A stretch of 37,163 nt of DNA. Source: a virus. The stretch covers positions 1 through 37,163 of IMG/VR virus record IMGVR_UViG_3300034198_002268; one strand, written 5' to 3'. Shown in pieces: positions 2,708 to 33,921 of this stretch. The notes beneath the pieces are model-generated. The model worked only from the letters and a program-made list of their open reading frames with translations. It ran no database searches and was not told the DNA's origin. The translations under genes were made by a program, and so were the position numbers. Position 1 is the stretch's first letter. Each line of letters opens with the position of its first letter.

Positions 2708-2927
2708 AGTATCTATTGGTGCAGACTACAAGGGAAGCTCTATGCATTACGTTGTAGGTCAGCCTGTGTTTAACGATTCCTATAAGATACACCTGATTAG
2801 AGAGGTTAATAGACGCATTGAGATATTTGTTATTCATGGTGAGGAAGGATCAGGTGAGATTTACCTGTGGAAGACTTTTAATGAGAACATGCCAGCAACT
2901 TTGGAGTTTAATTTAGACTTTGAATGA
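2694..2927 (+). CDS. Small beta-rich hypothetical protein
   Basis: 77 residues. An early block (VIRKVSIGADYKGSSMHYVVG) is followed by alternating strands, including IEIFVIHGEEGSGEIYLWKTF, and an acidic end (LEFNLDFE). It is conserved-looking and similar in feel to small proteins I associate with Bacteroidota phages, but no function is known to me. The ATG is embedded in the end of the upstream gene, and its stop overlaps the next start as ATGA, so it is co-translated with the chaperonin-like gene that follows. Confidence 0.7.
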   Translation: MVIRKVSIGADYKGSSMHYVVGQPVFNDSYKIHLIREVNRRIEIFVIHGEEGSGEIYLWKTFNENMPATLEFNLDFE

Positions 2928-3502
2928 GATCACCATTTCACTTTATCGTGGAGCCTGTAGGTGGTTCTAGGTATGATAACGTGAAGAGCATTTCAGGTAT
3001 AGACTTTATAACTAGCTCTTCAAAAGAGGATCATAAGGCATCAAATAGATATGCTAAGGTTCTTGCTACTCCTATAGGGTATACTGGAGATGTTATGCCA
3101 GGAGATACTGTTATTGTTCATCATAATGTGTTTAAGTATTATAACGACATTCATGGTAATGAGAGAAGCGGAAGGTCATACCTATTTGAGAATATCTTCT
3201 TAATAGATGATGATCAGTTTTTTCTTTACAAGAGAGAGAACGAGTGGAAAGCTCATTCTAGATATTGCTTTGTTATGCCAGAAAAGAGAATGGATAACTA
3301 CATTCTTTCAAAGATAGGTAACGAGGAATATCTTAGGGGAACACTTATATATCCTAATCAAGAACTTATAGACAAGGGGTTGAATAGTGGTGACAAGGTC
3401 GCATTTACTCCAGAAAGCGAGTATGAGTTTGAGATAGACGGTGTTATATTGTACAGAATGTATTCTAAAAATGTTTGCCTAGAGTTGAATGGAATTAAAT
3501 GA
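2924..3502 (+). CDS. Tandem GroES (Cpn10)-like co-chaperonin candidate
   Basis: 192 residues that read as two Cpn10-like halves. Half one (about 5-103) has the GroES order: FHFIVEPV strand; a flexible SGIDFITSSS segment where GroES carries its GroEL-binding mobile loop (GGIVLT); YAKVLATP; GDVMPGDTVIVHHNVF, matching the GroES turn VKVGDIVIFNDGYG; and FENIFLIDDDQFFLY, matching the DNEEVLIMSESDILAIV end. Half two (about 112-190) repeats SRYCFVMPEKR, LRGTLIYP, NSGDKVAF, IDGVILYRM and CLEL, but its loop is short. GroES-type proteins cap GroEL; T4 gp31 does so for capsid folding. The place upstream of terminase, portal and capsid genes suggests a similar job. The fold call is by motif order only, and is not certain. 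Confidence 0.6.
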   Translation: MRSPFHFIVEPVGGSRYDNVKSISGIDFITSSSKEDHKASNRYAKVLATPIGYTGDVMPGDTVIVHHNVFKYYNDIHGNERSGRSYLFENIFLIDDDQFFLYKRENEWKAHSRYCFVMPEKRMDNYILSKIGNEEYLRGTLIYPNQELIDKGLNSGDKVAFTPESEYEFEIDGVILYRMYSKNVCLELNGIK

Positions 3503-3767
3503 AACAAAGAGAAAGATTATCAGTGCTGGCCGAAAGGCTGTAATGCACTTGATAGAAGTTGCTGAGGAGAGGATTATCTCTGGAGGTGAGGAAGATCTTT
3601 CTGCTGACAAGCTTAAAAATGCTGCTGCAACTAAAAAGCTTGCAATATTTGATGCTTTTGAAATACTTGACAGGATTGAGGCAGAGCAAGAACTGCTAAA
3701 TAAAACAGACGAGGATGAAACTGGAAAAGGCGGATTTGCTGAAAGAAGAGCAAAGAGACACGGGTAA
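3489..3767 (+). CDS. Small terminase subunit candidate
   Basis: 92 residues, helical and charged: RKIISAGRKAVMHLIEVAEERI, then an acidic hinge, KLKNAAATKKLAIFDAFEILDRIEAEQELL, and a basic end (FAERRAKRHG). Small terminase subunits are short helical DNA-binding oligomers encoded directly before TerL, and this gene overlaps the TerL start by 53 bases. It could bind the packaging start site and stimulate TerL. There is no recognisable helix-turn-helix signature that I would swear to, so the call rests on place, size and composition. Confidence 0.55.
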   Translation: MELNETKRKIISAGRKAVMHLIEVAEERIISGGEEDLSADKLKNAAATKKLAIFDAFEILDRIEAEQELLNKTDEDETGKGGFAERRAKRHG

Positions 3768-5997: not shown

Positions 5998-8435
5998 TGC
6001 GCAAAGAGTCAAATATAGACATATCTCCAATTCAATTTCCAAGCCAACTTGCAACAGATGCAGAGAAGGCAAGTGAGGAGTTTGGATTGAGAGTTGGCCA
6101 GGCCATACAATACGAATGGTTTCGCAGAGACAGTGGATCTGCAAGGTATTATAACCAATGGAAAGACTTTAACCGTCTTAGATTGTACGCTCGTGGAGAG
6201 CAGCCTATTCAGAAGTATAAGAATGAACTAGCTATTGACGGAGACCTTTCTTACCTAAACATTGACTGGACTCCAGTTCCTATTATCCCTAAGTTTGTAG
6301 ACATAGTTGTTAACGGAATGTCTGACAGACTATTTACTATTAAGGCTTACGCTCAAGACGCTCTTTCAGCTGAGAAAAGAAATCAGTATCAGGACATGAT
6401 CGAGGGAGAGATGGCTGCGAAAGAAGTTCTCCTACAAGTTCAAGATAAGTTTGGTGTAGATCCATTCATGGTAAGCCCAGAAGACTTGCCAAACGATGAT
6501 GAAGAACTATCTCTATTTATGCAGCTTAACTACAAGCCAGCTATTGAGATTGCTGAAGAGGAAGCGATTAACACTATTCTTTTAGAAAATCACTACGATG
6601 ATATTAAGAGACGTTTTGATTATGATCTAACCACTATTGGTATTGCAGTTGGTAAGCATGAGTTTCTACCTGGAGAGGGTGTGAAAATTAATTATGTAGA
6701 CCCAGCTAATGTTATCTACAGTTATACAGAAGATCCATACTTTAGAGATTGCTTCTACTGGGGAGAGGTAAAGACAGTTCCAATTACTGAACTTATAAAG
6801 ATCAATCCAAGACTAACAAAAGAAGAGCTAGAAGAAATATCAAAGACTAATCAGTCTTGGGGTGAGTACTACTCTGTGTCAAGGTTTTATTCTGACAATG
6901 TATTTTCAAGAGACACATGTACTCTATTGTACTTCAATTACAAGACCACAAAGACTTACGTTTACAAAAAGAAAATTCTAGAGGGTAATGCTTCTAGAGT
7001 AATTGAGAAGGACGATACATTCAATCCTCCAGTAGAGATGATGGAGGAAGGCAGGTTTGAGAGAATAGAGAAGACTATCGATGTTTGGTACGAGGGAGTG
7101 ATGGTTGCTGGTACTAGAATTGTATTGAAGTGGCAGTTGATGGAGAACATGGTTCGTCCTAAGTCAGCGTCTCAGATGGCAATGCCAAACTACGTTGCTG
7201 TTGCTCCACGAATGTACAAGGGAACGATTGAGTCTTTGACTAGACGAATGATTCCTTTTGCTGATCTTATTCAGATCACTCACTTAAAGTTACAGCAGGT
7301 TATTTCTAGAATGGTGCCAGACGGTGTATTCATTGATGCTGATGGTCTAAATGAAGTTGACTTGGGTAATGGAAACGCATACACTCCAGAGGATGCTTTA
7401 AGACTATACTTCCAAACTGGTAGTGTTGTTGGACGTAGTTATACTGGAGATGGTGAATTCAATAACGCAAGGGTTCCTGTACAGCCTCTCACAGGCACTA
7501 CGGGGCAGTCTAAGATGGCCGCACTAATAAATAACTATAACCACTACCTAGAGATGTTGCGTGGCGTGACGGGTCTAAATGAGGCTCGTGATGGAAGCGA
7601 TCCAGATCCACGTGCTTTGGTTGGTGTGCAGAAACTTGCAGCACTTAACTCAAACACTGCGACAAGACACATTCTTGATGCAAGTCTGTTTATGACTAAG
7701 ACATTTGCTGAGGCATTAAGTGTTAGGGTTTCTGATATATTAGAGTATGCTGACTTTGCAGAAGAGTTTGCCATGCAGATCGGTAAGTACAATGTAGGTA
7801 TACTAAGAGATATAAAGGACTTATACATACATGACTTTGGTATCTTCATTGAGCTTTCTCCAGATGAGGAACAGAAGGAGAGACTTGAGCAGAACATTCA
7901 GATTGCTCTATCTAGAAACGATATCAATCTTGAAGATGCTATTGACATCAGAGAGATCAAGAACATTAAGATGGCTAACCAGCTGCTTAAGGTTAAGAGA
8001 ACTAAGAAGATGGAGCTTGATCAGAAGAACGACATGATGAAGCAGCAGATGCAGGCCCAGATTAACATGCAGTCTCAACAGGCTGCTGCTCAAATGGAAG
8101 TTCAGAAGATACAGCTTGAGACAGAGAGTAAGATTCAGCTCAAGCAGGCTGAGGCAGCCATGGATCTTGAGAAGCTTAAGGGAGAGGCTATGTTGAAGCT
8201 ACAGTTGATGGAGCGAGAGTTTCAGTACAACATGCAGCTGAACGGTATGCAGACCCAGTTGCTAAAGGATCGAGAGGAGATGAAGGAGGACAGAAAGGAT
8301 GAGAGAATTAGTAAGCAGAACAGTCAGCAGTCAAAATTAATTACTCAAAGAAAAAATAATTTACCTCCAATGAAGTTTGAATCAAATGAGGATAGTTTAG
8401 ACAAATTTGATCTAGCTTCATTCGAACCAAAATAA
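5997..8435 (+). CDS. Portal protein
   Basis: 812 residues directly after TerL with TAATG coupling. The body contains typical podovirus portal stretches: an early tyrosine- and tryptophan-rich clip/stem region (YYNQWKDFNRLRLYARGEQ), IPKFVDIVVNGMSDRLF at about 93-110, and RRMIPFADLIQITHLKLQQ at about 418-437. From about 630 to 790 there is a long Gln/Met/Glu/Lys-rich coiled coil, ending in a disordered tail. In the virion a dodecameric portal sits at one capsid vertex, docks TerL during packaging and then holds the tail adaptors. Identification rests on size, position between TerL and scaffold/capsid, and overall pattern. The long C-terminal coiled coil probably forms the inner barrel seen in T7- and P22-type portals. 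Confidence 0.85.
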   Translation: MRKESNIDISPIQFPSQLATDAEKASEEFGLRVGQAIQYEWFRRDSGSARYYNQWKDFNRLRLYARGEQPIQKYKNELAIDGDLSYLNIDWTPVPIIPKFVDIVVNGMSDRLFTIKAYAQDALSAEKRNQYQDMIEGEMAAKEVLLQVQDKFGVDPFMVSPEDLPNDDEELSLFMQLNYKPAIEIAEEEAINTILLENHYDDIKRRFDYDLTTIGIAVGKHEFLPGEGVKINYVDPANVIYSYTEDPYFRDCFYWGEVKTVPITELIKINPRLTKEELEEISKTNQSWGEYYSVSRFYSDNVFSRDTCTLLYFNYKTTKTYVYKKKILEGNASRVIEKDDTFNPPVEMMEEGRFERIEKTIDVWYEGVMVAGTRIVLKWQLMENMVRPKSASQMAMPNYVAVAPRMYKGTIESLTRRMIPFADLIQITHLKLQQVISRMVPDGVFIDADGLNEVDLGNGNAYTPEDALRLYFQTGSVVGRSYTGDGEFNNARVPVQPLTGTTGQSKMAALINNYNHYLEMLRGVTGLNEARDGSDPDPRALVGVQKLAALNSNTATRHILDASLFMTKTFAEALSVRVSDILEYADFAEEFAMQIGKYNVGILRDIKDLYIHDFGIFIELSPDEEQKERLEQNIQIALSRNDINLEDAIDIREIKNIKMANQLLKVKRTKKMELDQKNDMMKQQMQAQINMQSQQAAAQMEVQKIQLETESKIQLKQAEAAMDLEKLKGEAMLKLQLMEREFQYNMQLNGMQTQLLKDREEMKEDRKDERISKQNSQQSKLITQRKNNLPPMKFESNEDSLDKFDLASFEPK

Positions 8436-11661: not shown

Positions 11662-12153
11662 ATGGCTATTAAAAAAAATGACCCACCTAAAAAAGGTAAA
11701 ACCACTTTAGGTGCTGGTACAGGAACTGGGATTACAAAGTATGCCGCTGAAAACGCTAAGCAAAAAGCTATTAAAGAGGCAGCAAGAAAGTCTGCTGCTG
11801 CTGCTATGAAAAAGCCTGCTGCGAAAAAACCTGCACCTGCTCCTAAAAAAGCTGCTGCACCTGCTCCTAAAAAGGCTGCTGCACCTGCTCCTGCACCTGC
11901 TCCTGCTGTTGCAGCAAAGAAGCCTAGTACTATTAATAAAAGAGCACCATTAATGGATGTTCCTGTTGGTAACAAAGGATATAGAATGTCAATTGATACT
12001 ACAAACATGAACAAGCCAGATGAACAGACCTATAACTATATTATTAAGGATTCAACTGGAAAAGTTACATCAAAAGGAAACATGGCAAGACAAGGTTATA
12101 CTGGTAAGTCTGGAGCTAGAGAAGTAGTTAATAAGTTCAAGGCAAAGAAGTAA
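11662..12153 (+). CDS. Histone-H1-like AKP-repeat protein with a small C-terminal domain
   Basis: 163 residues. Residues about 1-20 are basic (KKNDPPKKGK). Residues about 30-90 form an Ala/Lys/Pro repeat tract (AAKKPAPAPKKAAAPAPKK and so on), the signature of H1-like bacterial and viral DNA-binding tails. The last 70 residues look folded: GYRMSIDTTNMNKPDEQTY, YIIKDSTGKVTSKGN, SGAREVVNKFKAKK. It follows the other basic gene after 12 bases and has the same leader as the capsid gene (AACAAAACAATGGC), which suggests strong translation. A role in compacting the packaged genome, or as a linker, is inference. A terminator follows. Confidence 0.65.
   Translation: MAIKKNDPPKKGKTTLGAGTGTGITKYAAENAKQKAIKEAARKSAAAAMKKPAAKKPAPAPKKAAAPAPKKAAAPAPAPAPAVAAKKPSTINKRAPLMDVPVGNKGYRMSIDTTNMNKPDEQTYNYIIKDSTGKVTSKGNMARQGYTGKSGAREVVNKFKAKK
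11833..11907 (+). repeat. Tandem 24-bp and 12-bp DNA repeats inside the AKP gene
   Basis: A 24-bp unit, GCACCTGCTCCT followed by AAAAARGCTGCT, occurs at 11833-11856 and 11857-11880 with one base difference. It is followed by two copies of the 12-bp half GCACCTGCTCCT at 11881-11904. In-frame repeats like this can expand or shrink by slippage without breaking the gene, changing the length of the Lys/Pro/Ala tail. Confidence 0.85.
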
Positions 12154-14682: not shown

Positions 14683-17600
14683 ATGGATTTAGTAAAAACC
14701 TTCGTAAAGGGCAGGATGAATAAGAGCCTTGATGAGAGGCTTATACCTGATGGCGAATATATTGATGCCATGAATGTTCGTGTTGGCTCTACTGAGTTAT
14801 CCGATGTTGGTGCTTTAGAAAATACGAAAGGAAATAATAAGATTTCAAACATACTATACAATAATGTTCCACTTTCAAGTAGTGCTGTCTGTATTGGCGC
14901 ATTTGAAGACGGTGTAAATGACACTATATACTGGTTTATTCACTCTCCAGCAGACAACGTAGACATGATTGTCTCAATGAATGTTGAGACTGGTTTTACT
15001 GTATACCACGTGGTTAGTACATCTGTGCTAAATTTTAGCAGAGATTACTTAATTAATGGAATAAATAAGATAGAAGACTTGCTTTTTTTTACAGATGGAT
15101 ACAATCCTCCTAGAAGAATAAATGTAAACAGATCATACCCTAGTGAACCTATTCTTACTGAGTCTGATATTTCTGTAATTGTTGCACCTCCTTTTGAGTC
15201 ACCTTCTATTAGATTGATAAATATATCTGGAGATGAAAACTATATAGAGGATAAGTTTTTATCATTTTCTTACAGATATAAATATTTGAACGGAGAGTAC
15301 AGTGCTATGTCTCAATTTAGCGAGATAGCATTTGAACCTGGATTCTTTAATTTTAACTTTAGTACATTTACAAACAGTGGAATGAGAAATAAATTCAACG
15401 CTGTTAATGTAACATTTGATACTGGTAGTGAAAGTGTAGTTGCGATTGACTTGCTTTTTAAAACATCAATTTCTTCTACTATAAATGTAATAGAAAGGTA
15501 CGATAAAAAACTTTTAGGTATTACAGATAATTCAGACTATACGGTTCAGTTTAGCTCTAAAAAAATATTATCCACGCTGCCTCCATCTGAAATTTTAAGA
15601 ACATTTGATAACGTACCAATTGTTGCTAAAGCTCAAACTTTGATGTCAAATAGAATTTTCTATGGAAACTACAAAGATGGTTACGACATTGTAGATTCAA
15701 ATGGAAAAAGAATTAATGTAAGATTTAATGCATCAATTGTTTCAGAAGAACTTGGATATCTAGAAGTTCCTTCAGTTAGATCATCATCTCAGTACAACAT
15801 AGTTCCACTTGGCCCTCACACTTATAGTAACACCTTAACAACTATAGATTTTACTGGAATTGATTTAAAAGAGGGAGCCGCTATAGGTATAGATTTATCT
15901 TTGAGTGGAACACTAGTTTCAGACCCAGATTATTCAAACGACATAATTCAATCTTTTTATTTTCAATTACAGAAAGATTACTCATCTGTTTATGAATTGG
16001 TAACTAGCCAAGAGTTTATTGATGAAATAGGATCTCAAACATTTCATGGAAACGTGGATGATTGTGGTACTGATGATGAGGGTACTTCTTTTACTGATCA
16101 AATAGCTTGTCAAGCTGTACCACCAACTGGATTTTCTAGCTATGGCTACGGTATAAATACTGTTGGAGAAGGAATTAAAATAATAGCTAATCCTGGATCT
16201 TCTTCTTTTTCATTACAGATGATTGTAATGGTTTATCAGAGTAATGTTAATCCTACAATATTTGATTATGAATACTTTTCTATAAGTTCAGTTTCTGCTG
16301 AGTACATGACTCAGTCTGATGCAAGCAGTTTGCATAGCAATAGAGATTTTTCTTTAGGTATAATATACATGGATGATTTTAATAGAGCAACAACTGTATT
16401 AACATCTGAAAATAATTCTATACATATACCTCCTGCAAATTCAGTAAATAAAAACTCTATAAAGGTAGACATACTATCCCCTCCTCCATTTTGGGCTAAA
16501 AAATATAAGTTTGCTTTATTGCCTTCTGGATTAGATTATGAAATAATATATAGCACTCTTTACTTTTTTAATCCTGGAGATAACACTGTTTTTCTAAATT
16601 TAGAAGGTGATAATCAAAATAAGGCTAAAGTTGGGGATAAGCTTATTGTTAAAAGAGATAGCACTGGACCATTAAGCAATTTAGTTAAATGTGAAATCTT
16701 AGATATTTCAGCACAACCTTTAGATTTTATTCAAGGTGGACAAGAGGAGCCATCTGGTCTTTACATGAAAATTAAGCCAGTAGGCTTTTCTATAGACACA
16801 GAGACTCCATCAGTATTAGGTGGAAAGACGATTTCTGTTAGTGGTAAAGACTATCCAGCTTTAAGTATACCAGTATTTACAGAAGAACCTGCTGGCACGT
16901 TTACTCCTTGGGAAATAACAGATGGAAGTATTGTTAGATTTGATTTAATTCTTAATAGACCATATAGAAATGAAGATAGAGGTCAAAGAAGATATAGCTA
17001 TAAAAAAGAATATGTAGCCTCATCAGACTATGCTAACCTTCGTGACTTTGTGTTAGCTCAAAATATAGACTTTAGCACAGGGGATAGTACTGTTAGCGGT
17101 GATGAGACAGAAAATGAAAATGTTTTTATTTCAGCACTTGGAACTACATTTCCATCAGCTACTGGTGGTATAAATAAATATCAGTTTTATGAAAGTCCTG
17201 CTTCATCTGGCAAGTTGTATTTTGGAATAAGAACAGGTACTCCTGGTTATAGTAATCCTGAATCATCAATTACTGGATCTATAACTATTGTTAGACAAAA
17301 TGGAATTATTGTATTTGAAACAGAGCCAACAGAAGCGGCTGATGACATTTACTATGAGGGAAGTCAGACATTTGAAATAGTTGGAGGAGCACATTCTCAA
17401 AATAGTATAGTACTAAACTTTCATGATTGCTTTACATTTGGTAACGGAGTAGAAAGTTATAAGATTGAAGACGCTCTTGCTGCACCTTACTTCAGACTAG
17501 GAGAAAGATTTTCTTCAGTGTCAGCAGAAGAATTTAAACAAGCTAATAGATATGCGTCTATAACTTATAGTGGCGTGTTTAATCCTGAGACAAATCTTAA

Positions 17601-18894
17601 CAAGTTAAATGAGTTTAACCTTGGTCTAGCAAACTTCAGTGACTTAGAACGTAGATTTGGTTCTATTCAAAAGATGTCTGGAAGACAGACAGATATCCTT
17701 GTTCTACAAGAAGATAAGATATCTTATGTACTTGCAGGTAAAAATGTTCTTTCTGATGCTGCTGCTGGTGGTGGAGCTATTGCAGCAATACCACAGGTTC
17801 TTGGAAATCAAATTGCGAGAATTGAAGAGTATGGAATCAGCTTAAACCCTGAGAGTTATGTTGAGTGGGGATTTGATAAGTACTTTACGGATCAAAAAAG
17901 AGGATCGGTAATAAGACTATCTGGCGCAGGAACAAGCGAAGACCTATCTGTTATTTCTAATGAGGGCATGAGATCTTGGTTTAGAGATCTATTTATAAGT
18001 GATGGCAAGACTCAAAAGTTAGGTGGATTTGACCCTTATATGGGTGAGTATGTTCTTAGTTCAAACAACTTTGAGATAAATCCAGATCAAGCTAGTGTAG
18101 GGTGTGGAACAGAAATACAGATAAACTCTGGAACAACTGGATTGCAAAACATAAATATTGATCTTGGAGATTATGAAGGTGAGTCTACTGTAACATTGAC
18201 AATTGATCAAATAACATCTGGACAGACGCTTAATGTTTCTTTTGTTTACAACGGAGTAACATACAGTACTGGTAATACTAGCATTTCAGATACGTTCTCA
18301 TTTAATAAAGGAGCTAAGGATAATGGTATACTTAGTGTTGCACAGTCTGGAGGAGTTGCATCTTACAGAATAGTTGTTGGATGTCCTGACGTAACGGACA
18401 TTACAGTAATTAACGTTACGGTAAATGATAAGTCTTATGAAGGCAAAGTAATAACAGATGAATATTCTGTCGGTGAATTTATATCTGGTAATTTAATAAG
18501 CATGCTTGGAGGAACAACGATGCCAATAGTTTCTAACTATTCTACGTTGTCTGGTCCAGAAGGATTTGGTTCAATACCTAGCAATGGGGATACGGTTGTA
18601 ATTAGATCTGTTAAAGGAACTACTGGAACTATGGAGTTTAATCCAACAACTCATAAGTTGAGATATTTAATTTCAAACACCTTGTATACAAGTACAAACA
18701 TATTATCTTTACTAAACGCTTCAACAATAGCTACTCCAGTGCTAAACCCTTCAGCTGGTGTTTACACGGCTGGTTTTACTTACAACAGCGGATCAAATTA
18801 CCTTTACATTATACACGACTACAGAAATATTTACAGTACAGAATTGTGTTATAGCAACGTATCAGCAGAAGAAGCTTGTTGCGACTGCGTATAA
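14683..18894 (+). CDS. Tail nozzle / stabilisation-type protein, 1403 residues
   Basis: The start (FVKGRMNKSLDERLIPDGEY then IDAMNVRVGSTE) is the typical opening of podovirus tail stabilisation or tubular-B-like proteins, including crAss-like stab proteins; T7 gp12 and P22 gp10 hold this place. Most of the chain is beta-rich. A block near 965-1100 contains YKIEDALAAPYFRLGERFSS and FGSIQKMSGRQTDILVLQEDKI. Residues about 1140-1240 form a Cys-flanked beta module (CGTEIQINSGTTGLQ to RIVVGCPDV) that also occurs in the next gene. The end is Cys-rich (EEACCDCV). It closes the tail tube and probably carries receptor contact surfaces. It follows the second adaptor after two bases. Confidence 0.75.
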   Translation: MDLVKTFVKGRMNKSLDERLIPDGEYIDAMNVRVGSTELSDVGALENTKGNNKISNILYNNVPLSSSAVCIGAFEDGVNDTIYWFIHSPADNVDMIVSMNVETGFTVYHVVSTSVLNFSRDYLINGINKIEDLLFFTDGYNPPRRINVNRSYPSEPILTESDISVIVAPPFESPSIRLINISGDENYIEDKFLSFSYRYKYLNGEYSAMSQFSEIAFEPGFFNFNFSTFTNSGMRNKFNAVNVTFDTGSESVVAIDLLFKTSISSTINVIERYDKKLLGITDNSDYTVQFSSKKILSTLPPSEILRTFDNVPIVAKAQTLMSNRIFYGNYKDGYDIVDSNGKRINVRFNASIVSEELGYLEVPSVRSSSQYNIVPLGPHTYSNTLTTIDFTGIDLKEGAAIGIDLSLSGTLVSDPDYSNDIIQSFYFQLQKDYSSVYELVTSQEFIDEIGSQTFHGNVDDCGTDDEGTSFTDQIACQAVPPTGFSSYGYGINTVGEGIKIIANPGSSSFSLQMIVMVYQSNVNPTIFDYEYFSISSVSAEYMTQSDASSLHSNRDFSLGIIYMDDFNRATTVLTSENNSIHIPPANSVNKNSIKVDILSPPPFWAKKYKFALLPSGLDYEIIYSTLYFFNPGDNTVFLNLEGDNQNKAKVGDKLIVKRDSTGPLSNLVKCEILDISAQPLDFIQGGQEEPSGLYMKIKPVGFSIDTETPSVLGGKTISVSGKDYPALSIPVFTEEPAGTFTPWEITDGSIVRFDLILNRPYRNEDRGQRRYSYKKEYVASSDYANLRDFVLAQNIDFSTGDSTVSGDETENENVFISALGTTFPSATGGINKYQFYESPASSGKLYFGIRTGTPGYSNPESSITGSITIVRQNGIIVFETEPTEAADDIYYEGSQTFEIVGGAHSQNSIVLNFHDCFTFGNGVESYKIEDALAAPYFRLGERFSSVSAEEFKQANRYASITYSGVFNPETNLNKLNEFNLGLANFSDLERRFGSIQKMSGRQTDILVLQEDKISYVLAGKNVLSDAAAGGGAIAAIPQVLGNQIARIEEYGISLNPESYVEWGFDKYFTDQKRGSVIRLSGAGTSEDLSVISNEGMRSWFRDLFISDGKTQKLGGFDPYMGEYVLSSNNFEINPDQASVGCGTEIQINSGTTGLQNINIDLGDYEGESTVTLTIDQITSGQTLNVSFVYNGVTYSTGNTSISDTFSFNKGAKDNGILSVAQSGGVASYRIVVGCPDVTDITVINVTVNDKSYEGKVITDEYSVGEFISGNLISMLGGTTMPIVSNYSTLSGPEGFGSIPSNGDTVVIRSVKGTTGTMEFNPTTHKLRYLISNTLYTSTNILSLLNASTIATPVLNPSAGVYTAGFTYNSGSNYLYIIHDYRNIYSTELCYSNVSAEEACCDCV

Positions 18895-23449: not shown

Positions 23450-26400
23450 ATGGACGAACAATTATTAAAAGATTATGTAGCCACATATCTTAATCCTAAG
23501 TATAATGGAAACTGGGATGTAGTAAATGAAAAGTTCCCTGAGTTGGCTGGAGTTGACAAGCAATTATTAAAGGATTACGTTGCTACATATACCAACCCAA
23601 ATTACAATGGGGACTTAAATGTTATAAATTCAAAGTTTCCAGAGCTATTTCCTAATAAAAAAAAAGACGTTACAGATTTATCTACGGCAGATGGTACATT
23701 GGTTTCGCCAAGCGGTGAAAAAGATACTGCACTAGAGAGAACTTTTGGTAAAAACCCATTAACAGACTTCTTTGGTGACATTTATAGATCTTATGAGGCT
23801 GGTTCCTCTAAGGTTGAAAACATAGATCCAACGATGAATATTTTTGGCAAGAAGGCATCTGAGATAGATGATGAGTCATTGAAATCATTCGTTGAGTCTG
23901 CAAATAAACTTAGTAAAACCCCAGTAACAGATGAGATGCGTCAGTATCAAAAAGATGTTAATGAAGCTGGTGGAGGATTTTTAAACTCAATTATTCAGGC
24001 AGTTAAAAACCCTGGTATTATACCTCAGCTTGTTGTTGACTCATTTTCAATGATGGTCCCAATAACAGATGAGGGAGTTAGTTCATACGCTCTTGCTGGA
24101 GCTGCTGCTGGGGCAGGAACTGGTGCTGGAGTTGGTGCTGGAGTTGGTGCTCTTGGAGGTCCTTTAGCTCCAATAAGTGTTACGGCTGGTGCCGCTGCTG
24201 GCGGTCTCAGAGGCTTGATGGCAGGTATGTCAGCAACAACTGAAGTTGCGTTGTCTTATGGACAGTACCTTCAGGAGGAGGCTCAGAAGAGAGGTCTTGA
24301 GTTTAATGAGCAAAATGTTAAAAAATTATTAGAAGATCAAGCGGTTGTAGATGGAGCAACAAATAGAGCTCTATCTAGAGGTGCTACTATTGGTCTTGTT
24401 GATGTTGTTACGTCTGGATTCGCAGGAAAGGCATTAGGAGCAACAAAGGCTGCTGTAAAGGGAACGACTGGTAAAGTACTAGGAACTGGAGCTGCGCTTA
24501 CTGTTGAATCAGTAGGTGAAGGTGCTGGTGAAGGTGCTGCTCAAGTAGTGTCTGGGCAAGAGGTTTCTGGAGAAGAGATTGCCCTTGAAATGCTTGGTGG
24601 TGTTGGAGGTGGCGTATTTAACGTGGCTGTAGAAAACTTGGTTGGAACTGAAAAAATAGGTAGATACAAAATAAATGGAGAAGAAGTATCTAAGAATAGA
24701 CTAAACAGATTCCTTCAAACTGCAACTCCAGATGAGGTTGCAAAAACCAACATTGAGATTACAGACGATAACGATGTACTAGCAGTTGCTGAAGATAAGA
24801 AGAAGGAGGCGTTGCTTGCTGGTCAGATAGACCCAGCTGTCACTGAAGAGACTGACAAGTCTAGACTTGTTAAGCTAGAGAAAGAAAGAGCAAAGCTAAA
24901 AGGTCTTGATACTAAGTCCGCTCAGAACAGAGTTAAGGCTATAGACGAAGAAATTGATTCTATTACTGGTAAGTATACATTAGAAGAAAAGCCAGCCGCT
25001 GAAACTATTGAGTACAAGATAGATGGTTCTAAAATGGACCGAGCTAGATTTGTTGCTGCTGTAGATGAGGCCAAGAATGAAGAAGCTCTCAACGAACTTG
25101 AGACTACCGATCCAGAAGTTCAGAAAGTAATTGATGCTAAGAGAGCTCAGTTTACTGGAGAGATACAGCCAGAGGTAAAGCTAGAGACACAGCCAGTGAC
25201 AATTAATGTCACGGATAAGTACACTGTAGATGAGGTTGATAGAGTAAAAACACTTCCAATTGAAAATGAGGATGGTGCTACCATGAACTTGGATGGTACC
25301 AAGTACGAGAAGGGTGGAGTGGTTATTCCATTGGCATCTAGAAATCTACCTATATCAGAACTTACACCTGAGAAGATAGACGAGTTTGTAAAAGAGAACT
25401 CAGAGTCTATCGGGTCTGACATGGTTAAGGTTGGTATCTACAAGTTCCCAAACAGTGATCAGGCTTCCATAGACATTAACATCGTAGCAGACAGATCAAG
25501 AAGAGATGAGGCTATTGAAATTGCAAGAGAGCTTGGTCAGGAGTCAATATTTGACTTAGATACATTCGAAAACATCAAGACTGGTGCTGACGGTAAGAAC
25601 CCTAAAGTTTTGACTTCTAAAGAGTTTTTAGCTATTCAGGATAGATTATCTAGACCAACGCAAACGGAGGTCACAGTGGCCCCAGAAACGTCTTCAAACT
25701 ACGCAAACATGACTGAAGATAACGAAGGAAACTTTGTGTTCTTCCATGTTGGCAAGAAGGGTTATGGCACAATTAAGAAAGGCACTGGAGCATCTCAAGT
25801 AACTTCAAGAGAAGAGGCATCTGCATTATCTAAGGTTGGTGGTCTAGCAATGTACTACACCGCTCCAGAGCAGACAGAAAGACAAAGTGCCGATGGTGCT
25901 AAGTACGCAGTAAAGGTACCTAAGAACAAGGTGTATGACTTCAACACTGACAAGCTAAACTTAATTGATGAGGCTAGACAGAGACATGAGTCAGAGAACC
26001 CTGGGAAAGCGTTTGACACAAACTCTCAGATTGCCTATGTAACAAAGATTGCTGGCGAGAAAGGTTTCGACATGGTCGTTGCTGATTGGGCTGGAGGAAC
26101 TAGAGCACAGACGACTAAGGAACTCACACCTGTTGACGTACAAGAATCTACTGGAAATGTTATTGAAAAGAATTTTGATAACCAGTATGAGTCTAACAAG
26201 ACTAAAGGATTTACTCCAGTTGTACCTAAGAGAAAGGCAGACAAGCTACAAGCTCTTTACGAAAAGATCAACGAGGTAAGAAATGCAGAGAAGAGGTATG
26301 ACAATCTTTACAGTTTGTACACTGATTCTTCGAAGTACAATCAGGAAGAGATCACTGACTTGATCGAGAAGTCTGACCTATCCCAAGACATCAAGAACGA

Positions 26401-29400
26401 GTACAAAGAGATTCTTGGATCAAAAGAGGAGACCAGAAGATCTGAGCAGAAGAAAGCAGCTCCAACAAACATAGAGGAGTCTATTAAGAACTCTGCAAAG
26501 ACACTTCAGACATCATTCCCTGGAGTTAATGTTATTGTAGCAGATAATACTGAGGACGCTAAGAACCAAATTGTAGAGCAACTTACTCCAATTGTTGGAG
26601 AAGAAAATGCAAAAACTATTGCAGATCAAATAGAGACAGCCAGAGGGCAGGCGGTATTCTATAATGGCAATCCAATAGCTGTCGTGGTAAACAAAGAGAA
26701 GGCAATATCAAACACTGCTGCACATGAGGTTTGGCACTTGATATTGAGAGAGGCTTTTGGAAAGAATCCTAAGAAGTTTAAGAGCTTCCAGAATGCTATT
26801 TCTAGAGAACTTAAGAGTGCTGGATACGCTGATATTGCAGATTATCTTGACACATTCTCAGCTGAATATGAGGGTGATGCCGTATACGAAGAATACTTGG
26901 CAGAGCTTGGTGGATTGCTAACCACAAAAGGTTTCGATCCTAAGAACCTAACAACACAAGAGAAGAGCATACTTAACAAGATCAAAGAGATCATCAACAA
27001 GTTTGCTAAGTCAATTGTTGGTCAGGATGTATTCTTGAAGGATGCCAAGCCAGAGAACATTCTACAGTTCATGATTAGTGTGTCTGACTTAGTTGCTAGG
27101 GGAGAGGATGTAAGACCAGCTATTGGAAAGTCTGAAGTGAAAAAGACTAAAGCTAAAGTTGATATTGTAAAACAATCAACCGAGGCGTTCTCTGGGAAAC
27201 TTGGAGAAATGGGTATATCTATTGGAGTTACAAATCCAAAAACAGGGAAAACTAAAGTTACAAACTTTGATGTAGCTACAGGTCTGAATGAGTATTATAC
27301 TAAAAAATACGGAGTAATACCTCCTGGAGACTTTTCTCAGAAAGCTGTAGACGCTTTAGCAGACTATGCATCTGTGGAAATGCTATTTTCAATGGCTAAA
27401 TTTGGAGACAAATCTGGTAAAGGATGGTACACCGAAGACTACTCTCAGGCTCTAGATATACTTTCATCTATTGATCCAGATATAAATAAAGATCCAAAGA
27501 TAAAAGCAATAACAACTTCTATCATAGCTGTAGCATCTAACTCAAGTGGAGTTTATGATAATCTTACAAGAGTAATATACGGTATAAGTGAATATAAGAA
27601 AACTGGTAAGATTCCTTTAAATGTAGGGACTGGAAAAGGACAAGAAGCAATTGCAACTGGTATTGATAGATACAACAAGGTTGTTGAAAAACTAGGCAAT
27701 GATCCAGTTAGAGTTAAGAAATTCATGAGCCAAATAGATAAGGTTTCTGAGTTAAAAAAGAAACTTGTTAAAGAGTTTGACATGAAGAGCTGGGCCGATG
27801 CCAAGAAGGAACTTGCAACTGATCCAGACTGGAATGACTCAGAGACATTGCCAATGTCTGTTTTAATATTTGGTCCAAAAATTGGAGCATTCTGGTCTAA
27901 TCTTTCTGGACTAGATGGAACACCGACTATTGATAGATGGTGCATAAGAACTATCTATAGATATAAAGGAGATATGAGGGCTAAGATATCATCTTCGGAT
28001 ATGAAATCATTCATGACTGAAAATGGAATAGAAGGAGCATCTCAATCAGACGTTATATCTTTGGCTCAAGAACATTCAAAAATGTTTAAGAGAATACTTG
28101 CTGGTAAAGGTGAGTACGCTTCTTTGCCAAAGGCTGAAAGAAATGAATTATTAAAGCCCTATAGAAAGGGAGATCAAATTTGGTCTAAGGCACAAGGAGT
28201 TGTTAACGATATATCTGAAGGAATAGATGAGTCTGTAGACAATAAGGCAAAGTATGGTAGAGATTTTAGAACCTTTACTAAAAATGTTTTTGAAAAAGCT
28301 AGAGATATTGTTGTTGATAAAACTGGAATAAAACTATCTGTTTCTGATGTTCAGGCTATACTTTGGATATATGAAAAGAATTTGTTTGGTGAACTTGGAG
28401 TTAAACAGAGAGAAGACTCAACGTATTCATCTGCCGCAAACTCAATTATAAATAAGGTTAAGTCTGGGCCTTTAACTGTTGAAATGCTCAAGAGTGGAGA
28501 CTTGAAAGCACTTGAAACAGAGAAAATATCAGAAGATGGACCAATGGGTGATATATATACTTTTGGTGATAAACAATTCAAAAGTGGATTAGATTCTAGA
28601 GAGAAAAGATCTAAAGAATCAATTGAGATATCAAAACAAATAACTACAGATAAAGACGCAAAGCCTGGCTTCGAAGCTACTATTGCAGCAATAAATGAGA
28701 CTGTAGAAGATAGAAAAATTTGGAGAAAAGAAAATAAAGTTAACCAGAAGCAAAAAAGAAATCCTATAGTTGAAAAGGCTGTTAAAGATTATTACAATGG
28801 ATTAATAAACCAAGATCAATACATTGAAATAGTTAAAAAAAATCAACCTATTAAAACATTTAAAAGTGTTCCAGCTCTTCCTTCAGTAAGAGATATAGTT
28901 AATTCATTGGATGAAAATAAAGTTGCAACTGGTATTGTTGGTGTTACAAAAAATATTGAAGACGGAGATAAAGTAGCCTCTAGACTTGATATACCTGCAT
29001 ACGAAGACTTTGATACATGGGTTGTTTCTGTTCATGATGGAGATAAAGAGGGAAAATCAATAGCTTATGGGCAAACAGCAGTATTAAAAAATGTTAATTT
29101 TAAAACATTTCCTGGTCCAGCCATAAGGATTGCGATGGGAACTCAAAGTAAATCCACTATAGCAAGAATATTTGGTAACTGGGTTAATGAAGATCCTGAA
29201 GCAGTCCACGATAGAGCAAAGAAATTAATGGATGATCCTGAGTGGACTCAGGTTGGCATGAATCCGTTCAGACATAGTTACTTCTATGATAAGACTGATG
29301 GCATGCCAGTTGCAACAGCAGATGAAGTGGTTCAAGTAGGAGCATTGGTATTAGCAAAAAATGCTAAGAAAGTACTTCCATCTGATCCAATGTTTACCAC

Positions 29401-32400
29401 TAAGTCAGCTGAAGGGCTTGAAATTCAATTTCAAAAGCAGCTACCAGCTAGAGTTAACGAGCAGATCAATAACATTATCTCTGAGCAGAAGGCACTTGGA
29501 AACAAGCCAGTAGAGATAGCTAAAGAGGCTGCTAAGTACGTTAAGACTACTGACGCATATAAGAAGCTTGGAGACAGAGACAAAGCTAAAGTAATTGGTG
29601 GTATCAAGAGACTTTCTGGCATGAGAGTTAGAGTGCTAGTAGATGAATATGCAAATCTTAAGGATCAGTTAAGAGCAGCTGAGAAACTTTCTGACGCTAA
29701 CAAAAAACTACCAAACTATAAGCAGACTCTATCTGAGTTAGTTAACTCAGTGAGAGCTCTAGTTAAGGCTGGTAAGATCAGCACATTCAGAGCTGGTGTA
29801 ATTATAGGAAGAATAGTAAAGACCAACCTAACAAGTCCTGAGTCTGTAAACAAGACCATTAACTACATTGCAGATATATTTGACAATGCAAATTTGGCTA
29901 TGAAGATTAGCCGAGCAAAGTCTCTTGTTAAGAATGCTAAGAGAAATATTAACTCAAAGATTGGTCAGAACCCAGATCTATTCAACGCTGGAAAGATACT
30001 GGTATCAATAGATCCTGCCTTTATACCTACCCCAATGATCGATGACTACTTAGATATAATGGAGGTTATTGGAGAGAGAGCTAGGGTTCTATCAATTAAA
30101 GACTCTGGAGAGCTTACAGCTAAGATGAACGTAATCATCAACGCTGTGATTAATGAGTCTGAAGATGTAGTTAACTCTGCCGAACAGGAGAAGATCAGAA
30201 TGACTCCAGAAGAAAGCGTTGTGGCTGCACAATCATTAATTGATCAGATAAAAGCAGATAAGTTAGAGACCTCTAACATTATTGATGTAAATGATGCTGC
30301 CGTGGCTAGAAAAATTGCATCTATCACAGAAAAAGATATGATGGATTTACTGTCAATAGATAAGGATGGTATCACAGACTTCTCTAAGCTAAAGCTATTA
30401 CTTGGAATTAGGGAAAACATTAAAGCTGGAATTGTTACTAATGAAGCCATGCTTATGGCTACAGCTGTAGCGCAGAACAGAAACGTAGACAAATTGTCTA
30501 CAGTTGTAGGAAAGGTAACTGGGCCTAAGATTCTTAATGGTGTAACTAGAACTATCTCTAAGATTAAAGGAGCTATAACAGGTAAGTCTGGAGTTCTTGA
30601 GGCTATTAGATCTACACCTCTAGAATTTATCGATGACGTTATTGGCAACTTTAACGATAAGACCATCTATAACCTAACATTCGGTTTACTTGGATCTCCA
30701 AAGGGAAGACTAGACGCAAGACTAGCAGACCTATCTGCGAAGGCAGATGCGGCAGAGAAGTTACTACAGAGTGCTGGTAGAACAGATAACGCTGTTGTTG
30801 AGGCTAAGTACAAGATCATGGCACTACAATTGCAGAGAGAGTTTGATTCAAACCCAGGAAGCCCATCTGTGGCTCCTGCTATCGAGTTTATTGACGCAAC
30901 ACTTAGAGCTATATCTAGAAAAGAGTCTTCACTTACAAATAATGACGCAAGGATACTTGAGAAGATCAAAAAGGACTTTGGAGTTAAAGATGCAGATGGA
31001 AATCAAACTCTAAATACTAAAGCCATTGAAAATTCTTTGAAAGAGAATGACAAGAAAGCTATGTCTTTGATTGATGAGATCAACGCTGCTCAAGCATCTG
31101 AGGCACTGTTTACAAGTTCTGTAATTAGAGGTGCTAGAGTTAACATTATTAACAACTACGTACACCACGCTGTCCTTAGCAAGAATCAATCTTTGGAGGC
31201 TGAGTCACTTATAAATAAGCTGCTAGGTAGAGGTGCAAATGGTAAGCCATCCACTAAGGCTGGCACATTGAACGAAAGAACTCCTGGGGCTAAGGCTATC
31301 ATGTTTGATCCAATATCTGCGTCAATGAGAGGTGCTAGAGAAACCCTAACAGACTTCTATATGACTCCAGCGATCAGAGAGGTTACAGGATCACTTAATA
31401 AGCTTAAGGACAAGGTGTTTGATGATCCAAATTCAACTCAGGATCAAAAGGATATTGCTCAGTCTCTGGTAGAATCTGTAGAGGAAGCATTGGAAGTTAC
31501 ATTCCAAAATCACTTTAGCTCAGACACTAACTTTGAGGCTTTAGTTAAGGCTATACAAAAACTAGGGTATCAGACCACATTGGCTTCTATCCCAAGAGCT
31601 ATTGCAGAACTTTCATCTAACATGTCGTTCGCAATATTATCCGATCCAAAGACAACTACAGACGCACTGAAGCATACTAAGTTTGCTTTCTCTTCGAACA
31701 TGCTAGGTTTCTTGGAGAAGATTGGTAGTGCTGAATCAACTAGACTTGCGGGAACTCAGATCCTAACTGGTAAGTATGCTGAGGGTGGGTTTGCATCTGG
31801 ATATGGAAGAACAAGTAAGTCCGCAGCATCATCTAAGATAATGGACTATGCGTCATTCATAACAAGAATGTCTATTGGTAAACTATACAGAGTGGCTGAC
31901 GTAACTTCAGATCTATTGATATCTACACCAGATAAGGTGGTATCAAAGGCTTACTATGTTGCTGACTTTGTAAACAACTTTGAGAAAGAGACTGGCGTAA
32001 AGTTAACTGAAAGCGATCTAAGAAAGATATCAGACGGAACATCTGAGTACTTGTCTCCAGAGTATGAGACAGCACTACAGAAGGCACGACAAAAAGCAGA
32101 CTCAGACATTGTTCGAATGGCCGCTTCTGGAAACTCGTTCAACACAATTCTTAAGAACGTGCCAAGAAAGAAAGATGCCGCAATGATGTCAGCATACAGA
32201 GCGATAAACTCTTTCATGTCTAGGTTCTATTTAACTGAATACGGAACATTAAGATCTGCCGTGATAGCATTGTTCAAGAGTGGACAGATAGACAAGAAGG
32301 CAGCAACAGCTATAATTGCAGCATCTGTAACCAGAATGAGCATGTATGTTGTTGCATATTCATTATTAAGTTCTATCTTTGACTCAATTATCGGAGACGC

Positions 32401-33073
32401 ACTTGATTTGGAGGGAGAAGATGAAGACGATGAGGACCTAATGACTAGAGCAAAGAGAAGCATGGTAGGAACTGGAGTTGGTGTTCTAAGTAGAAGAACT
32501 CTAGGAAACATTGGTTATACTCCAGTAGCGTATGCTATCGAGCAACTAAATGCTGATCTTGGTGAAGATTTCGGACTAAGAGATGGCGAGTATGATCCTT
32601 TCAAGAATTCATTGGTTTATTCTAAGGTTTCTGAGTCAGACTTGAAAACAAAGAGCCCTTACGAAGTTCTTGGCAAGGCTTTTGCTGGTCCTTATGCTCC
32701 AGCACTATCAAGCATAACAAGAACTGCAACTCTATATGGCAGAGCTACTAAAGAAGGATCTAAGCCAGAAACTCAAAAGAGAGCAATGGATGAGCTAGAA
32801 AGCAGAATGGCACTAGAGGCAGTAGGTAACCTTGGATTGATTCCTTTGTACAAGGATGTTAGAAGAATCATGATGAGCGACTTTTACGCAAGAAATTACG
32901 ATAAAAAAGAGTCTCCTTCTTTCACCATCACTCAAAAACAGATAGATTTGATACGTAAATCAAACCCTACGGCAGCGAGACAGCTTCAGTCTATATATGA
33001 TACGCAGAAAGCTGAAGAGAAAAAAGTTAGAGATTTTAAGAATAATTTAGAAAAACAAACCAAATCTAATTAA
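23450..33073 (+). CDS. Giant polyvalent virion protein, 3207 residues, probably ejected into the host
   Basis: One uninterrupted frame of 9.6 kb. In order: two 34-residue repeats (about 3-70) built on QLLKDYVATY, NPxYNG and KFPEL; a Gly/Ala-rich glycine-zipper region at about 212-260, apt for membrane insertion; Glu/Lys spacers; a domain at about 764-905 (FFHVGKKGYGTIKKG, MYYTAPEQTERQSADG), similar to ART-like or other polyvalent domains; a zincin site HEVWH with H1092, E1093, H1096; a domain at about 1270-1650 with FGPKIGAFWSNLSG, TPTIDRW and QAILWIYEKNLFGELG; another at about 1790-1985 with WTQVGMNPFRHSYFYDK; long helical spacers; and C-terminal hydrophobic helices near 2950-2985 before an acidic patch. 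Phage polyvalent proteins are delivered with DNA. It takes the T7 gp16 position but lacks an obvious transglycosylase. Confidence 0.8.
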   Translation: MDEQLLKDYVATYLNPKYNGNWDVVNEKFPELAGVDKQLLKDYVATYTNPNYNGDLNVINSKFPELFPNKKKDVTDLSTADGTLVSPSGEKDTALERTFGKNPLTDFFGDIYRSYEAGSSKVENIDPTMNIFGKKASEIDDESLKSFVESANKLSKTPVTDEMRQYQKDVNEAGGGFLNSIIQAVKNPGIIPQLVVDSFSMMVPITDEGVSSYALAGAAAGAGTGAGVGAGVGALGGPLAPISVTAGAAAGGLRGLMAGMSATTEVALSYGQYLQEEAQKRGLEFNEQNVKKLLEDQAVVDGATNRALSRGATIGLVDVVTSGFAGKALGATKAAVKGTTGKVLGTGAALTVESVGEGAGEGAAQVVSGQEVSGEEIALEMLGGVGGGVFNVAVENLVGTEKIGRYKINGEEVSKNRLNRFLQTATPDEVAKTNIEITDDNDVLAVAEDKKKEALLAGQIDPAVTEETDKSRLVKLEKERAKLKGLDTKSAQNRVKAIDEEIDSITGKYTLEEKPAAETIEYKIDGSKMDRARFVAAVDEAKNEEALNELETTDPEVQKVIDAKRAQFTGEIQPEVKLETQPVTINVTDKYTVDEVDRVKTLPIENEDGATMNLDGTKYEKGGVVIPLASRNLPISELTPEKIDEFVKENSESIGSDMVKVGIYKFPNSDQASIDINIVADRSRRDEAIEIARELGQESIFDLDTFENIKTGADGKNPKVLTSKEFLAIQDRLSRPTQTEVTVAPETSSNYANMTEDNEGNFVFFHVGKKGYGTIKKGTGASQVTSREEASALSKVGGLAMYYTAPEQTERQSADGAKYAVKVPKNKVYDFNTDKLNLIDEARQRHESENPGKAFDTNSQIAYVTKIAGEKGFDMVVADWAGGTRAQTTKELTPVDVQESTGNVIEKNFDNQYESNKTKGFTPVVPKRKADKLQALYEKINEVRNAEKRYDNLYSLYTDSSKYNQEEITDLIEKSDLSQDIKNEYKEILGSKEETRRSEQKKAAPTNIEESIKNSAKTLQTSFPGVNVIVADNTEDAKNQIVEQLTPIVGEENAKTIADQIETARGQAVFYNGNPIAVVVNKEKAISNTAAHEVWHLILREAFGKNPKKFKSFQNAISRELKSAGYADIADYLDTFSAEYEGDAVYEEYLAELGGLLTTKGFDPKNLTTQEKSILNKIKEIINKFAKSIVGQDVFLKDAKPENILQFMISVSDLVARGEDVRPAIGKSEVKKTKAKVDIVKQSTEAFSGKLGEMGISIGVTNPKTGKTKVTNFDVATGLNEYYTKKYGVIPPGDFSQKAVDALADYASVEMLFSMAKFGDKSGKGWYTEDYSQALDILSSIDPDINKDPKIKAITTSIIAVASNSSGVYDNLTRVIYGISEYKKTGKIPLNVGTGKGQEAIATGIDRYNKVVEKLGNDPVRVKKFMSQIDKVSELKKKLVKEFDMKSWADAKKELATDPDWNDSETLPMSVLIFGPKIGAFWSNLSGLDGTPTIDRWCIRTIYRYKGDMRAKISSSDMKSFMTENGIEGASQSDVISLAQEHSKMFKRILAGKGEYASLPKAERNELLKPYRKGDQIWSKAQGVVNDISEGIDESVDNKAKYGRDFRTFTKNVFEKARDIVVDKTGIKLSVSDVQAILWIYEKNLFGELGVKQREDSTYSSAANSIINKVKSGPLTVEMLKSGDLKALETEKISEDGPMGDIYTFGDKQFKSGLDSREKRSKESIEISKQITTDKDAKPGFEATIAAINETVEDRKIWRKENKVNQKQKRNPIVEKAVKDYYNGLINQDQYIEIVKKNQPIKTFKSVPALPSVRDIVNSLDENKVATGIVGVTKNIEDGDKVASRLDIPAYEDFDTWVVSVHDGDKEGKSIAYGQTAVLKNVNFKTFPGPAIRIAMGTQSKSTIARIFGNWVNEDPEAVHDRAKKLMDDPEWTQVGMNPFRHSYFYDKTDGMPVATADEVVQVGALVLAKNAKKVLPSDPMFTTKSAEGLEIQFQKQLPARVNEQINNIISEQKALGNKPVEIAKEAAKYVKTTDAYKKLGDRDKAKVIGGIKRLSGMRVRVLVDEYANLKDQLRAAEKLSDANKKLPNYKQTLSELVNSVRALVKAGKISTFRAGVIIGRIVKTNLTSPESVNKTINYIADIFDNANLAMKISRAKSLVKNAKRNINSKIGQNPDLFNAGKILVSIDPAFIPTPMIDDYLDIMEVIGERARVLSIKDSGELTAKMNVIINAVINESEDVVNSAEQEKIRMTPEESVVAAQSLIDQIKADKLETSNIIDVNDAAVARKIASITEKDMMDLLSIDKDGITDFSKLKLLLGIRENIKAGIVTNEAMLMATAVAQNRNVDKLSTVVGKVTGPKILNGVTRTISKIKGAITGKSGVLEAIRSTPLEFIDDVIGNFNDKTIYNLTFGLLGSPKGRLDARLADLSAKADAAEKLLQSAGRTDNAVVEAKYKIMALQLQREFDSNPGSPSVAPAIEFIDATLRAISRKESSLTNNDARILEKIKKDFGVKDADGNQTLNTKAIENSLKENDKKAMSLIDEINAAQASEALFTSSVIRGARVNIINNYVHHAVLSKNQSLEAESLINKLLGRGANGKPSTKAGTLNERTPGAKAIMFDPISASMRGARETLTDFYMTPAIREVTGSLNKLKDKVFDDPNSTQDQKDIAQSLVESVEEALEVTFQNHFSSDTNFEALVKAIQKLGYQTTLASIPRAIAELSSNMSFAILSDPKTTTDALKHTKFAFSSNMLGFLEKIGSAESTRLAGTQILTGKYAEGGFASGYGRTSKSAASSKIMDYASFITRMSIGKLYRVADVTSDLLISTPDKVVSKAYYVADFVNNFEKETGVKLTESDLRKISDGTSEYLSPEYETALQKARQKADSDIVRMAASGNSFNTILKNVPRKKDAAMMSAYRAINSFMSRFYLTEYGTLRSAVIALFKSGQIDKKAATAIIAASVTRMSMYVVAYSLLSSIFDSIIGDALDLEGEDEDDEDLMTRAKRSMVGTGVGVLSRRTLGNIGYTPVAYAIEQLNADLGEDFGLRDGEYDPFKNSLVYSKVSESDLKTKSPYEVLGKAFAGPYAPALSSITRTATLYGRATKEGSKPETQKRAMDELESRMALEAVGNLGLIPLYKDVRRIMMSDFYARNYDKKESPSFTITQKQIDLIRKSNPTAARQLQSIYDTQKAEEKKVRDFKNNLEKQTKSN

Positions 33074-33075
33074 TA

Positions 33076-33921
33076 ATGCAAATCAAAGTTCAAAATGACT
33101 CGTTTCTTGTAGAGGTACCTCTTAAGGATTCGGGAGATTACAAGAGCATTTTGTTTATTTCTGATCTACACTTCGATTCTAAGAAATGCAACAGAAAAGC
33201 TTTAAAGTCTATGATGGATGAAGCAGTTGAAAGAGACGCATCCATAGCAATCTTCGGAGATATCCTAGATATCATGGGAGCTAAGTTTGATCCAAGATCA
33301 AGTAAGGGCGACATTAGACCAGAGTACAGCACCAACAACTACTTCATGGACGTGTTGGATGACGCAGTAAGATTCTTTGGTCCGTATTCAGACAGGATTT
33401 TATTCTTGTCTATGGGTAACCATGAGGACTCAGTAAAGAAGAGACACGAGTTTGATCTTCTTTCTATCATGTCCTATAAGTTAAAGCAAGAGTACAACTG
33501 GAAAGGTTTACTAGGTCCTTACGAAGGATGGATTCTTTTCAGAGTATTGGAAGGATCAACAAACCACAACAGAGGCACAGTAAAGGCTTACTACACGCAC
33601 GGAGCTGGAGGTAACGCTCCAGTAACAAGAGGTGTTATTCAGAGCTCAAGAAGACAGGTACAGATTAGTGCAGACATGTTTATATCTGGACACATCCACA
33701 CTCAGTTCTCATTTCCAATCCCACAGAGAATGGTTAACAGCCACGGTGTAGAAGAGATTAAGGACATTGTACACCTACAGCTAGGATGTTTCAAGGAAAG
33801 CCACAGAGGATCTTGGGAAGCACAGAGAGGATTCGGACCAGCAAACATTGGTGGCTACTGGGTTAAGTTTTTTGTGAAGGACAAGAAGCCTAGATTTATT
33901 GAAGAAAGAACTATTTACTAA
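33076..33921 (+). CDS. Calcineurin-like metallophosphoesterase
   Basis: 281 residues with all metal-binding blocks of the family in order: SDLHFD (D30, H32), GDILD (D62, D65), GNHE (N115, H116), THGAGG (H175) and GHIHT (H206, H208). Such enzymes bind two metals and cleave phosphomono- or diesters; members include nucleases and nucleotide phosphatases, and the substrate here cannot be told. It begins two bases after the giant virion gene and its TAA overlaps the next ATG, so it belongs to the late transcript and might be packaged or act on DNA ends late in infection (inference). Length is normal for a single-domain member. Confidence 0.88.
   Translation: MQIKVQNDSFLVEVPLKDSGDYKSILFISDLHFDSKKCNRKALKSMMDEAVERDASIAIFGDILDIMGAKFDPRSSKGDIRPEYSTNNYFMDVLDDAVRFFGPYSDRILFLSMGNHEDSVKKRHEFDLLSIMSYKLKQEYNWKGLLGPYEGWILFRVLEGSTNHNRGTVKAYYTHGAGGNAPVTRGVIQSSRRQVQISADMFISGHIHTQFSFPIPQRMVNSHGVEEIKDIVHLQLGCFKESHRGSWEAQRGFGPANIGGYWVKFFVKDKKPRFIEERTIY

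Follow-up and report, generated by a model that had tools for sequence, protein, structure and literature searches.

The window, the whole 37,163-base stretch of DNA that was analysed, is an IMG/VR record that may be a partial genome, and its source is an aquatic Bacteroidetes phage. Its terminase is 70% identical to that of a Manatee Spring podovirus and 46% identical to those of Flavobacterium elemo phages. The main gene block is co-directional and encodes an endolysin, a GroES-like protein (2924-3502), the terminase large subunit and portal (3715-8435, plus strand), head proteins, a homologue of the crAss-type muzzle (tail) protein (14683-18894, plus strand; PF25731, phrog_14478), further structural proteins, and a giant ORF, which is the last large gene of the head/tail block. 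Genes annotated as GroEL and as a 10-kDa chaperonin adjoin in the Manatee Spring relative (L016, 8970-10860). A short tandem repeat at 11815-11906 encodes an Ala/Pro/Lys-rich stretch within the ORF at 11662-12153, and a calcineurin-like metallophosphoesterase or DNA-repair-exonuclease-like gene (33076-33921) begins 3 bases past the stop codon of the giant.

The giant ORF runs uninterrupted on the plus strand from an ATG at 23450 to a stop codon ending at 33073, encodes 3207 residues, and takes up about a quarter of the window. An earlier sequence-only reading had proposed a single gene here, and the intact frame bears this out, as does a relative on another contig (L001) with 84% identity to the giant over its whole length. 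Together with mosaic relatives (L002, L003, and L106), this full-length relative shows the giant to be a selected gene. The same reading had described blocks that look like separate domains; these correspond to modules at residues 754-902, 1003-1223, 1325-1646, and 1742-1989 that are found separate or reordered in other phages, and they form discrete domains instead of a single coiled coil.

Module borders were drawn by comparing the giant with the loci of its relatives, and all features lie on the plus strand. The N-terminus (residues 1-68; 23450-23653) consists of two repeat units of about 34 amino acids, as had been noted from the sequence, with the motif DYVATYxNPxYNG at residues 8 and 42; related N-termini are present in at least eight other giants. 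A Gly/Ala-rich region (residues 154-400; 23909-24649), with runs at 214-243 and 323-352, is common to T7-like and other giants, and module X (residues 571-744; 25160-25681) is mobile between giants. These are followed by a predicted ART-fold domain (residues 745-905; 25682-26164), a predicted zincin-like metallopeptidase domain (residues 1003-1223; 26456-27118), an exchangeable cassette (residues about 1225-1725; 27122-28624) with a domain of predicted HhH-GPD (DNA-glycosylase superfamily) fold (residues 1290-1660; 27317-28429), an L5 gp82/phrog_586-like domain (residues 1742-1989; 28673-29416), and a C-terminal scaffold (residues 1990-3164; 29417-32941) that is conserved across cassette variants. 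The family phrog_32588 matches residues 2330-3162; despite this match, a tblastn search of the phage collection with the C-terminal 1190 amino acids gave zero matches. In other giants the module order is permuted, including ZIN-HhH-ART-ARTPV-X, ZIN-CASB-ART, X-ZIN-HhH-gp82, and GZ-ARTPV-HhH. The HhH and gp82 modules occur together in 25 loci, 12 times within one ORF. The multi-domain alignments A4, A11, A12, and A13 had misplaced rows and were left out of the structure work.

The zincin-like assignment of residues 1003-1223 is supported by motif and predicted fold. The HEVWH site lies at residues 1092-1096 (26723-26737), and zincin structures are among the fold matches for residues 1006-1180 of the predicted model. 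H1092, E1093, E1148, and E1152 are each conserved in 42/42 aligned relatives and H1096 in 29/42, and the zincin inferred earlier from HEVWH is thus upheld by its conserved glutamates and fold matches. An HExxH motif is present in 65 of 86 HhH-bearing ORFs, compared with 1 of 86 after shuffling. In 13 of the 42 relatives, column 1096 aligns a Glu in place of the second HEXXH histidine; either the rows are misaligned, since there are HEXXXH variants, or the site is variant or inactive.

The ART-fold model was made from the closely related region of L106, which is 95-98% identical to the giant. Fold matches for residues of about 745-909 are AcrIF11 (Z 6.8, with a Foldseek probability of 0.77), MbcT (5.9), diphtheria toxin (5.5), and NatT (5.2), the Z scores being modest at 5-7. 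H766 and Y803 are invariant in 40/40 aligned sequences, and the candidate third catalytic residue is either Q887 (37/40) or E891 (23/40). No ART-PolyVal (PF18760) profile match was found, and comparison of the 754-902 family with ART-PolyVal by hhalign was not significant; homology to ART-PolyVal was rejected on these profile comparisons. Some giants carry both the ART-fold module and ART-PolyVal. The model and the invariant residues therefore support a predicted ART-fold domain at residues 745-905 that is distinct from ART-PolyVal at the sequence level; the ADP-ribosyltransferase-like domain suspected at 754-905 stands as a fold, but not as a match to the Pfam family.

The third putative enzymatic module lies in the block at residues 1270-1650, which is predicted to fold like the HhH-GPD DNA-glycosylase superfamily. 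The AF2 model of the region was built on 45 sequences and has pLDDT values of mostly 80-98 over the block. The four best structural matches for residues 1290-1651 of the model all belong to the HhH-GPD superfamily: Qng1 (Z 10.3), MUTYH (7.9), and two structures of phage PUGT (7.7 and 6.5), although every value after Qng1 falls under 8, where arrangements arising by chance are also seen. For neither whole model did Foldseek reach a significant E-value against the PDB, and the fold claims for the giant are based on VIA re-alignment together with motifs. Without recourse to the model, the motif FGPKIGAFWSNLSGLDGTPTIDRWCIRTIYR parallels the core of E. coli Nth, with 18 residues from Lys to Asp and an Arg five past the Asp; the spacing from Lys1477 (codon 27878-27880) to Asp1495 (codon 27932-27934) is the K-18-D of endonuclease III. 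Both residues are invariant in 41/41 aligned sequences, as are the Trp, both Arg, and a distal Q-A-W-E set. The GxK is kept in 21/21 sequences retrieved through the Asp-side seed alone, and an Asp at K+18/19 in 43/43 retrieved through the Lys-side seed alone. In the AF2 model, the Lys comes right after the start of one helix and the Asp right before the start of the next. Helix starts in these positions are expected of an HhH-GPD fold. Sequence-profile tests were negative: PF00730 did not match the block, hmmsearch of the PDB with the family profile failed to support HhH-GPD, and hhalign of the family to 12 HhH-GPD proteins was not significant. For this reason membership is claimed at the level of the fold only, and not as Pfam HhH-GPD. 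The domain thus resembles endonuclease III, MutY, Qng1/DUF2419, and PUGT in its predicted fold, in a hairpin Lys 18-19 residues before the Asp, and in the Arg after the Asp, but differs in having no significant profile match, in being almost confined to phages, and in being embedded in giant proteins.

The fold matches alone suggest more than one possible activity. Qng1, a queuosine-monophosphate N-glycosidase, outscores the next match by over 2 Z units, as would be expected if the domain of the delivered giant acted on a nucleotide or nucleoside, for example to destroy a defence signal or cofactor. The Lys at the lyase position of endonuclease III and the spacing of the Arg more closely resemble DNA glycosylases, however, and a nucleotide substrate is considered unlikely; DNA and nucleotide substrates are separated only by this comparison of Lys and Arg in the sequence. 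Two PUGT structures among the four best matches would also suit a DNA hypermodification transferase, like the phage 5-PmdU glycinyltransferase, in place of a hydrolase. This is quite improbable, since the searched window proteins showed no recognisable 5-hmdU pathway gene (the contig being part of a genome) and a delivered transferase would presumably lack an activated substrate in incoming DNA. A DNA glycosylase-like activity is the preferred assignment, in which D1495 would be the catalytic acid and K1477 would occupy the position characteristic of bifunctional glycosylase/lyases.

The family of this block is present in at least 197 viral contigs, mostly within giant proteins, and in 12 loci of a collection of 84,980 genomes, several of which are MAG contigs with giant ORFs; it is nearly confined to viruses. 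Sub-threshold matches of DUF7178 (Pfam) and phrog_3842 fall on the catalytic core in four giants and cover about 45 residues only. These matches lie below the curated cut-off, and DUF7178 may be related to the family. The predicted DNA-glycosylase-like module is a previously unrecognised component of the giant, and the word "glycosylase" is absent from the main text of the 2017 survey of polyvalent proteins (PMC5512222). The sequence-only reading had listed a protease and an ADP-ribosyltransferase-like domain as effectors, both of which are retained as predicted folds; the HhH-GPD fold had been missed, as had the exchange of modules.

Exchange is clearest in L002, which is 91% identical to the giant over residues 1-1223 and 98% identical over the aligned C-terminal part. 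Despite these flanks, the two proteins are unrelated between 1225 and 1725. At the left border the identity per 25 residues falls from 0.96 to 0.24 and below, and it returns to roughly 0.5-0.7 in the gp82 domain. The replacement, cassette B, has about 390 residues and sharp borders; the same unrelated cassette is found in L002, L106, and L003, and in L003 it replaces both the HhH and gp82 modules. Cassette B also occurs in elemo-like giants, between the zincin and the ART-fold domain. It has no Pfam or PHROG match, and much of it is at low pLDDT in the predicted model. The exchange thus keeps to one reading frame and to the borders of modules. L002 looks to have an exchanged gp82 domain too, with 66% identity between flanks that are 91-98% identical. 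Because near-identical phages replace the HhH-GPD module wholesale, it is more likely to be an effector specific to a host or a defence than a function essential for entry or general repair.

Candidate self-cleavage linkers at module borders ([ILV]x[FY][SQ][KR] and variants) were rejected, as the motif was not above shuffles in 84 non-redundant giants; one variant chosen post hoc was raised (6 compared with 1.05 in shuffles) and is not relied on.

The giant might instead be a structural ejection conduit or tape-measure-like protein in which the embedded domains are inactive relics. A C-terminal scaffold that is long and helical, weak Pfam matches of the giant to tape-measure-like and spectrin-like families, and a hydrophobic stretch at residues 2951-2985 are all compatible with such a role, but invariant putative catalytic residues across divergent relatives and movement of modules as intact units are not expected of relics, making this explanation very improbable. 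The hydrophobic stretch peaks at 1.48 on the Kyte-Doolittle scale over 19 residues, below the usual threshold of about 1.6; of the C-terminal membrane helices read from the sequence, one moderately hydrophobic stretch is left. The membrane conduit proposed earlier draws on this weak hydrophobicity.

Several comparisons bear on packaging. The elemo counterpart of the giant is annotated as a structural protein. The T7-like Limnohabitans phage DC33 has a giant with the 1325-1646 domain and Gly-rich region in common with that of the window. The DC33 gene lies immediately behind two others, one for an internal virion protein and one for a protein with an endolysin domain, and this is the position of T7 gp16. 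No match to the gp14, gp15, or gp16 families (Pfam, PHROG) was found in the giant or in the window neighbours searched, and no transglycosylase was found. Replacement of T7 gp16 by the giant, as proposed earlier, thus agrees with the position of the related DC33 gene but not with family membership. Reading the giant as an N4-type virion RNA polymerase was rejected, there being no polymerase family match in Pfam and PHROG searches. DC33 (L018, PQ492659.1) is filed under Inoviridae but has T7-like internal virion genes in a genome of 39 kb, and this taxonomic placement looks wrong. A late intracellular polyprotein that is not packaged is the least probable of the alternatives, given a giant that is the last large gene of the head/tail block, a counterpart annotated as structural, and a T7-like relative with its giant in the gp16 position.

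The explanation that best fits the giant is a polyvalent protein carried as virion cargo by a crAss-like Bacteroidetes podovirus. A polyvalent protein joins at least two biochemically disparate domains in a single polypeptide (Iyer et al. 2017, PMC5512222), and an ART fold, a zincin, and an HhH-GPD fold are predicted in this one; the multidomain polyvalent protein recognised earlier is upheld by the first two. Like the proteins of that survey, the giant links several unlike enzymatic domains in a single phage polypeptide, has zincin and ART modules, and is predicted to be delivered with DNA. The DC33 giant carries LPD22 and ART-PolyVal domains, whereas the window giant matches no Pfam LPD or ART-PolyVal model; it adds the HhH-GPD-fold module and the exchange of modules between near-identical phages. 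Polyvalent proteins have been proposed to enter the host with the DNA and to be processed by zincins (PMC5512222). The muzzle-bearing phage crAss001 stores large cargo proteins in its capsid and tail and provides a model for ejection (PMC10172136); like the window phage it is short-tailed and has large late-encoded proteins, but its cargo includes RNA-polymerase-related proteins, and no polymerase was recognised in the window giant. From these two precedents and the gp16 position in DC33 we infer packaging, ejection, zincin-dependent release, and the activities of the ART-fold and HhH-GPD-fold modules.

On balance, then, phage particles probably carry the giant and eject it together with the genome. 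It would be held in the virion or conduit by its N-terminal repeats, its Gly-rich region, and its C-terminal scaffold, with the effector modules in a bay between the N-terminal parts and the scaffold. The zincin would most likely cut the chain, freeing modules, or act on host proteins; the ART-fold domain would most likely modify host proteins with NAD; and the HhH-GPD-fold domain would most likely act on DNA as infection begins, by cleaving an N-glycosidic bond. It is more tentatively suggested, at somewhat less than even likelihood, that virions widely deliver an HhH-GPD-fold N-glycosidase/lyase as an exchangeable effector in giant ejected proteins, so that base excision would serve phages as a weapon or counter-defence at the very outset of infection. 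Brig1, a host defence glycosylase, attacks phage bases (PMC13216743), and a virion-borne glycosylase, if true, would be the reverse of such defences. Phage-delivered enzymes act ahead of any phage gene expression, and for most of their domains no function has been assigned; in so common a protein class, a glycosylase-fold module that retains its Lys/Asp pair offers a direct and cheap biochemical test. Near-identical phages with naturally swapped cassettes supply allele pairs through which the host or defence that a given module addresses could be sought.

Other giants and their neighbours show further variation. The gp82-like domain (SRLDIPAY...DPEWTQVGMNPFRHSYFYDK), of mixed alpha/beta structure with pLDDT 80-96 in the predicted model, is among the commonest modules (457 viral contigs) and is often in its own ORF adjoining an HhH-bearing ORF (loci L004-L014 and L106-L184). 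A Hydrogenophaga MAG contig (L236) has a 5293-aa ORF with the order GZ-ARTPV-HhH-ARTPV. The L022 giant has a methyltransferase domain (PF13489) at residues of about 1990-2081, the L025 giant a weak GNAT match at about 726-784, and the L107 giant a ParB-like DGHHRW motif at about 1620-1650, after the HhH module.
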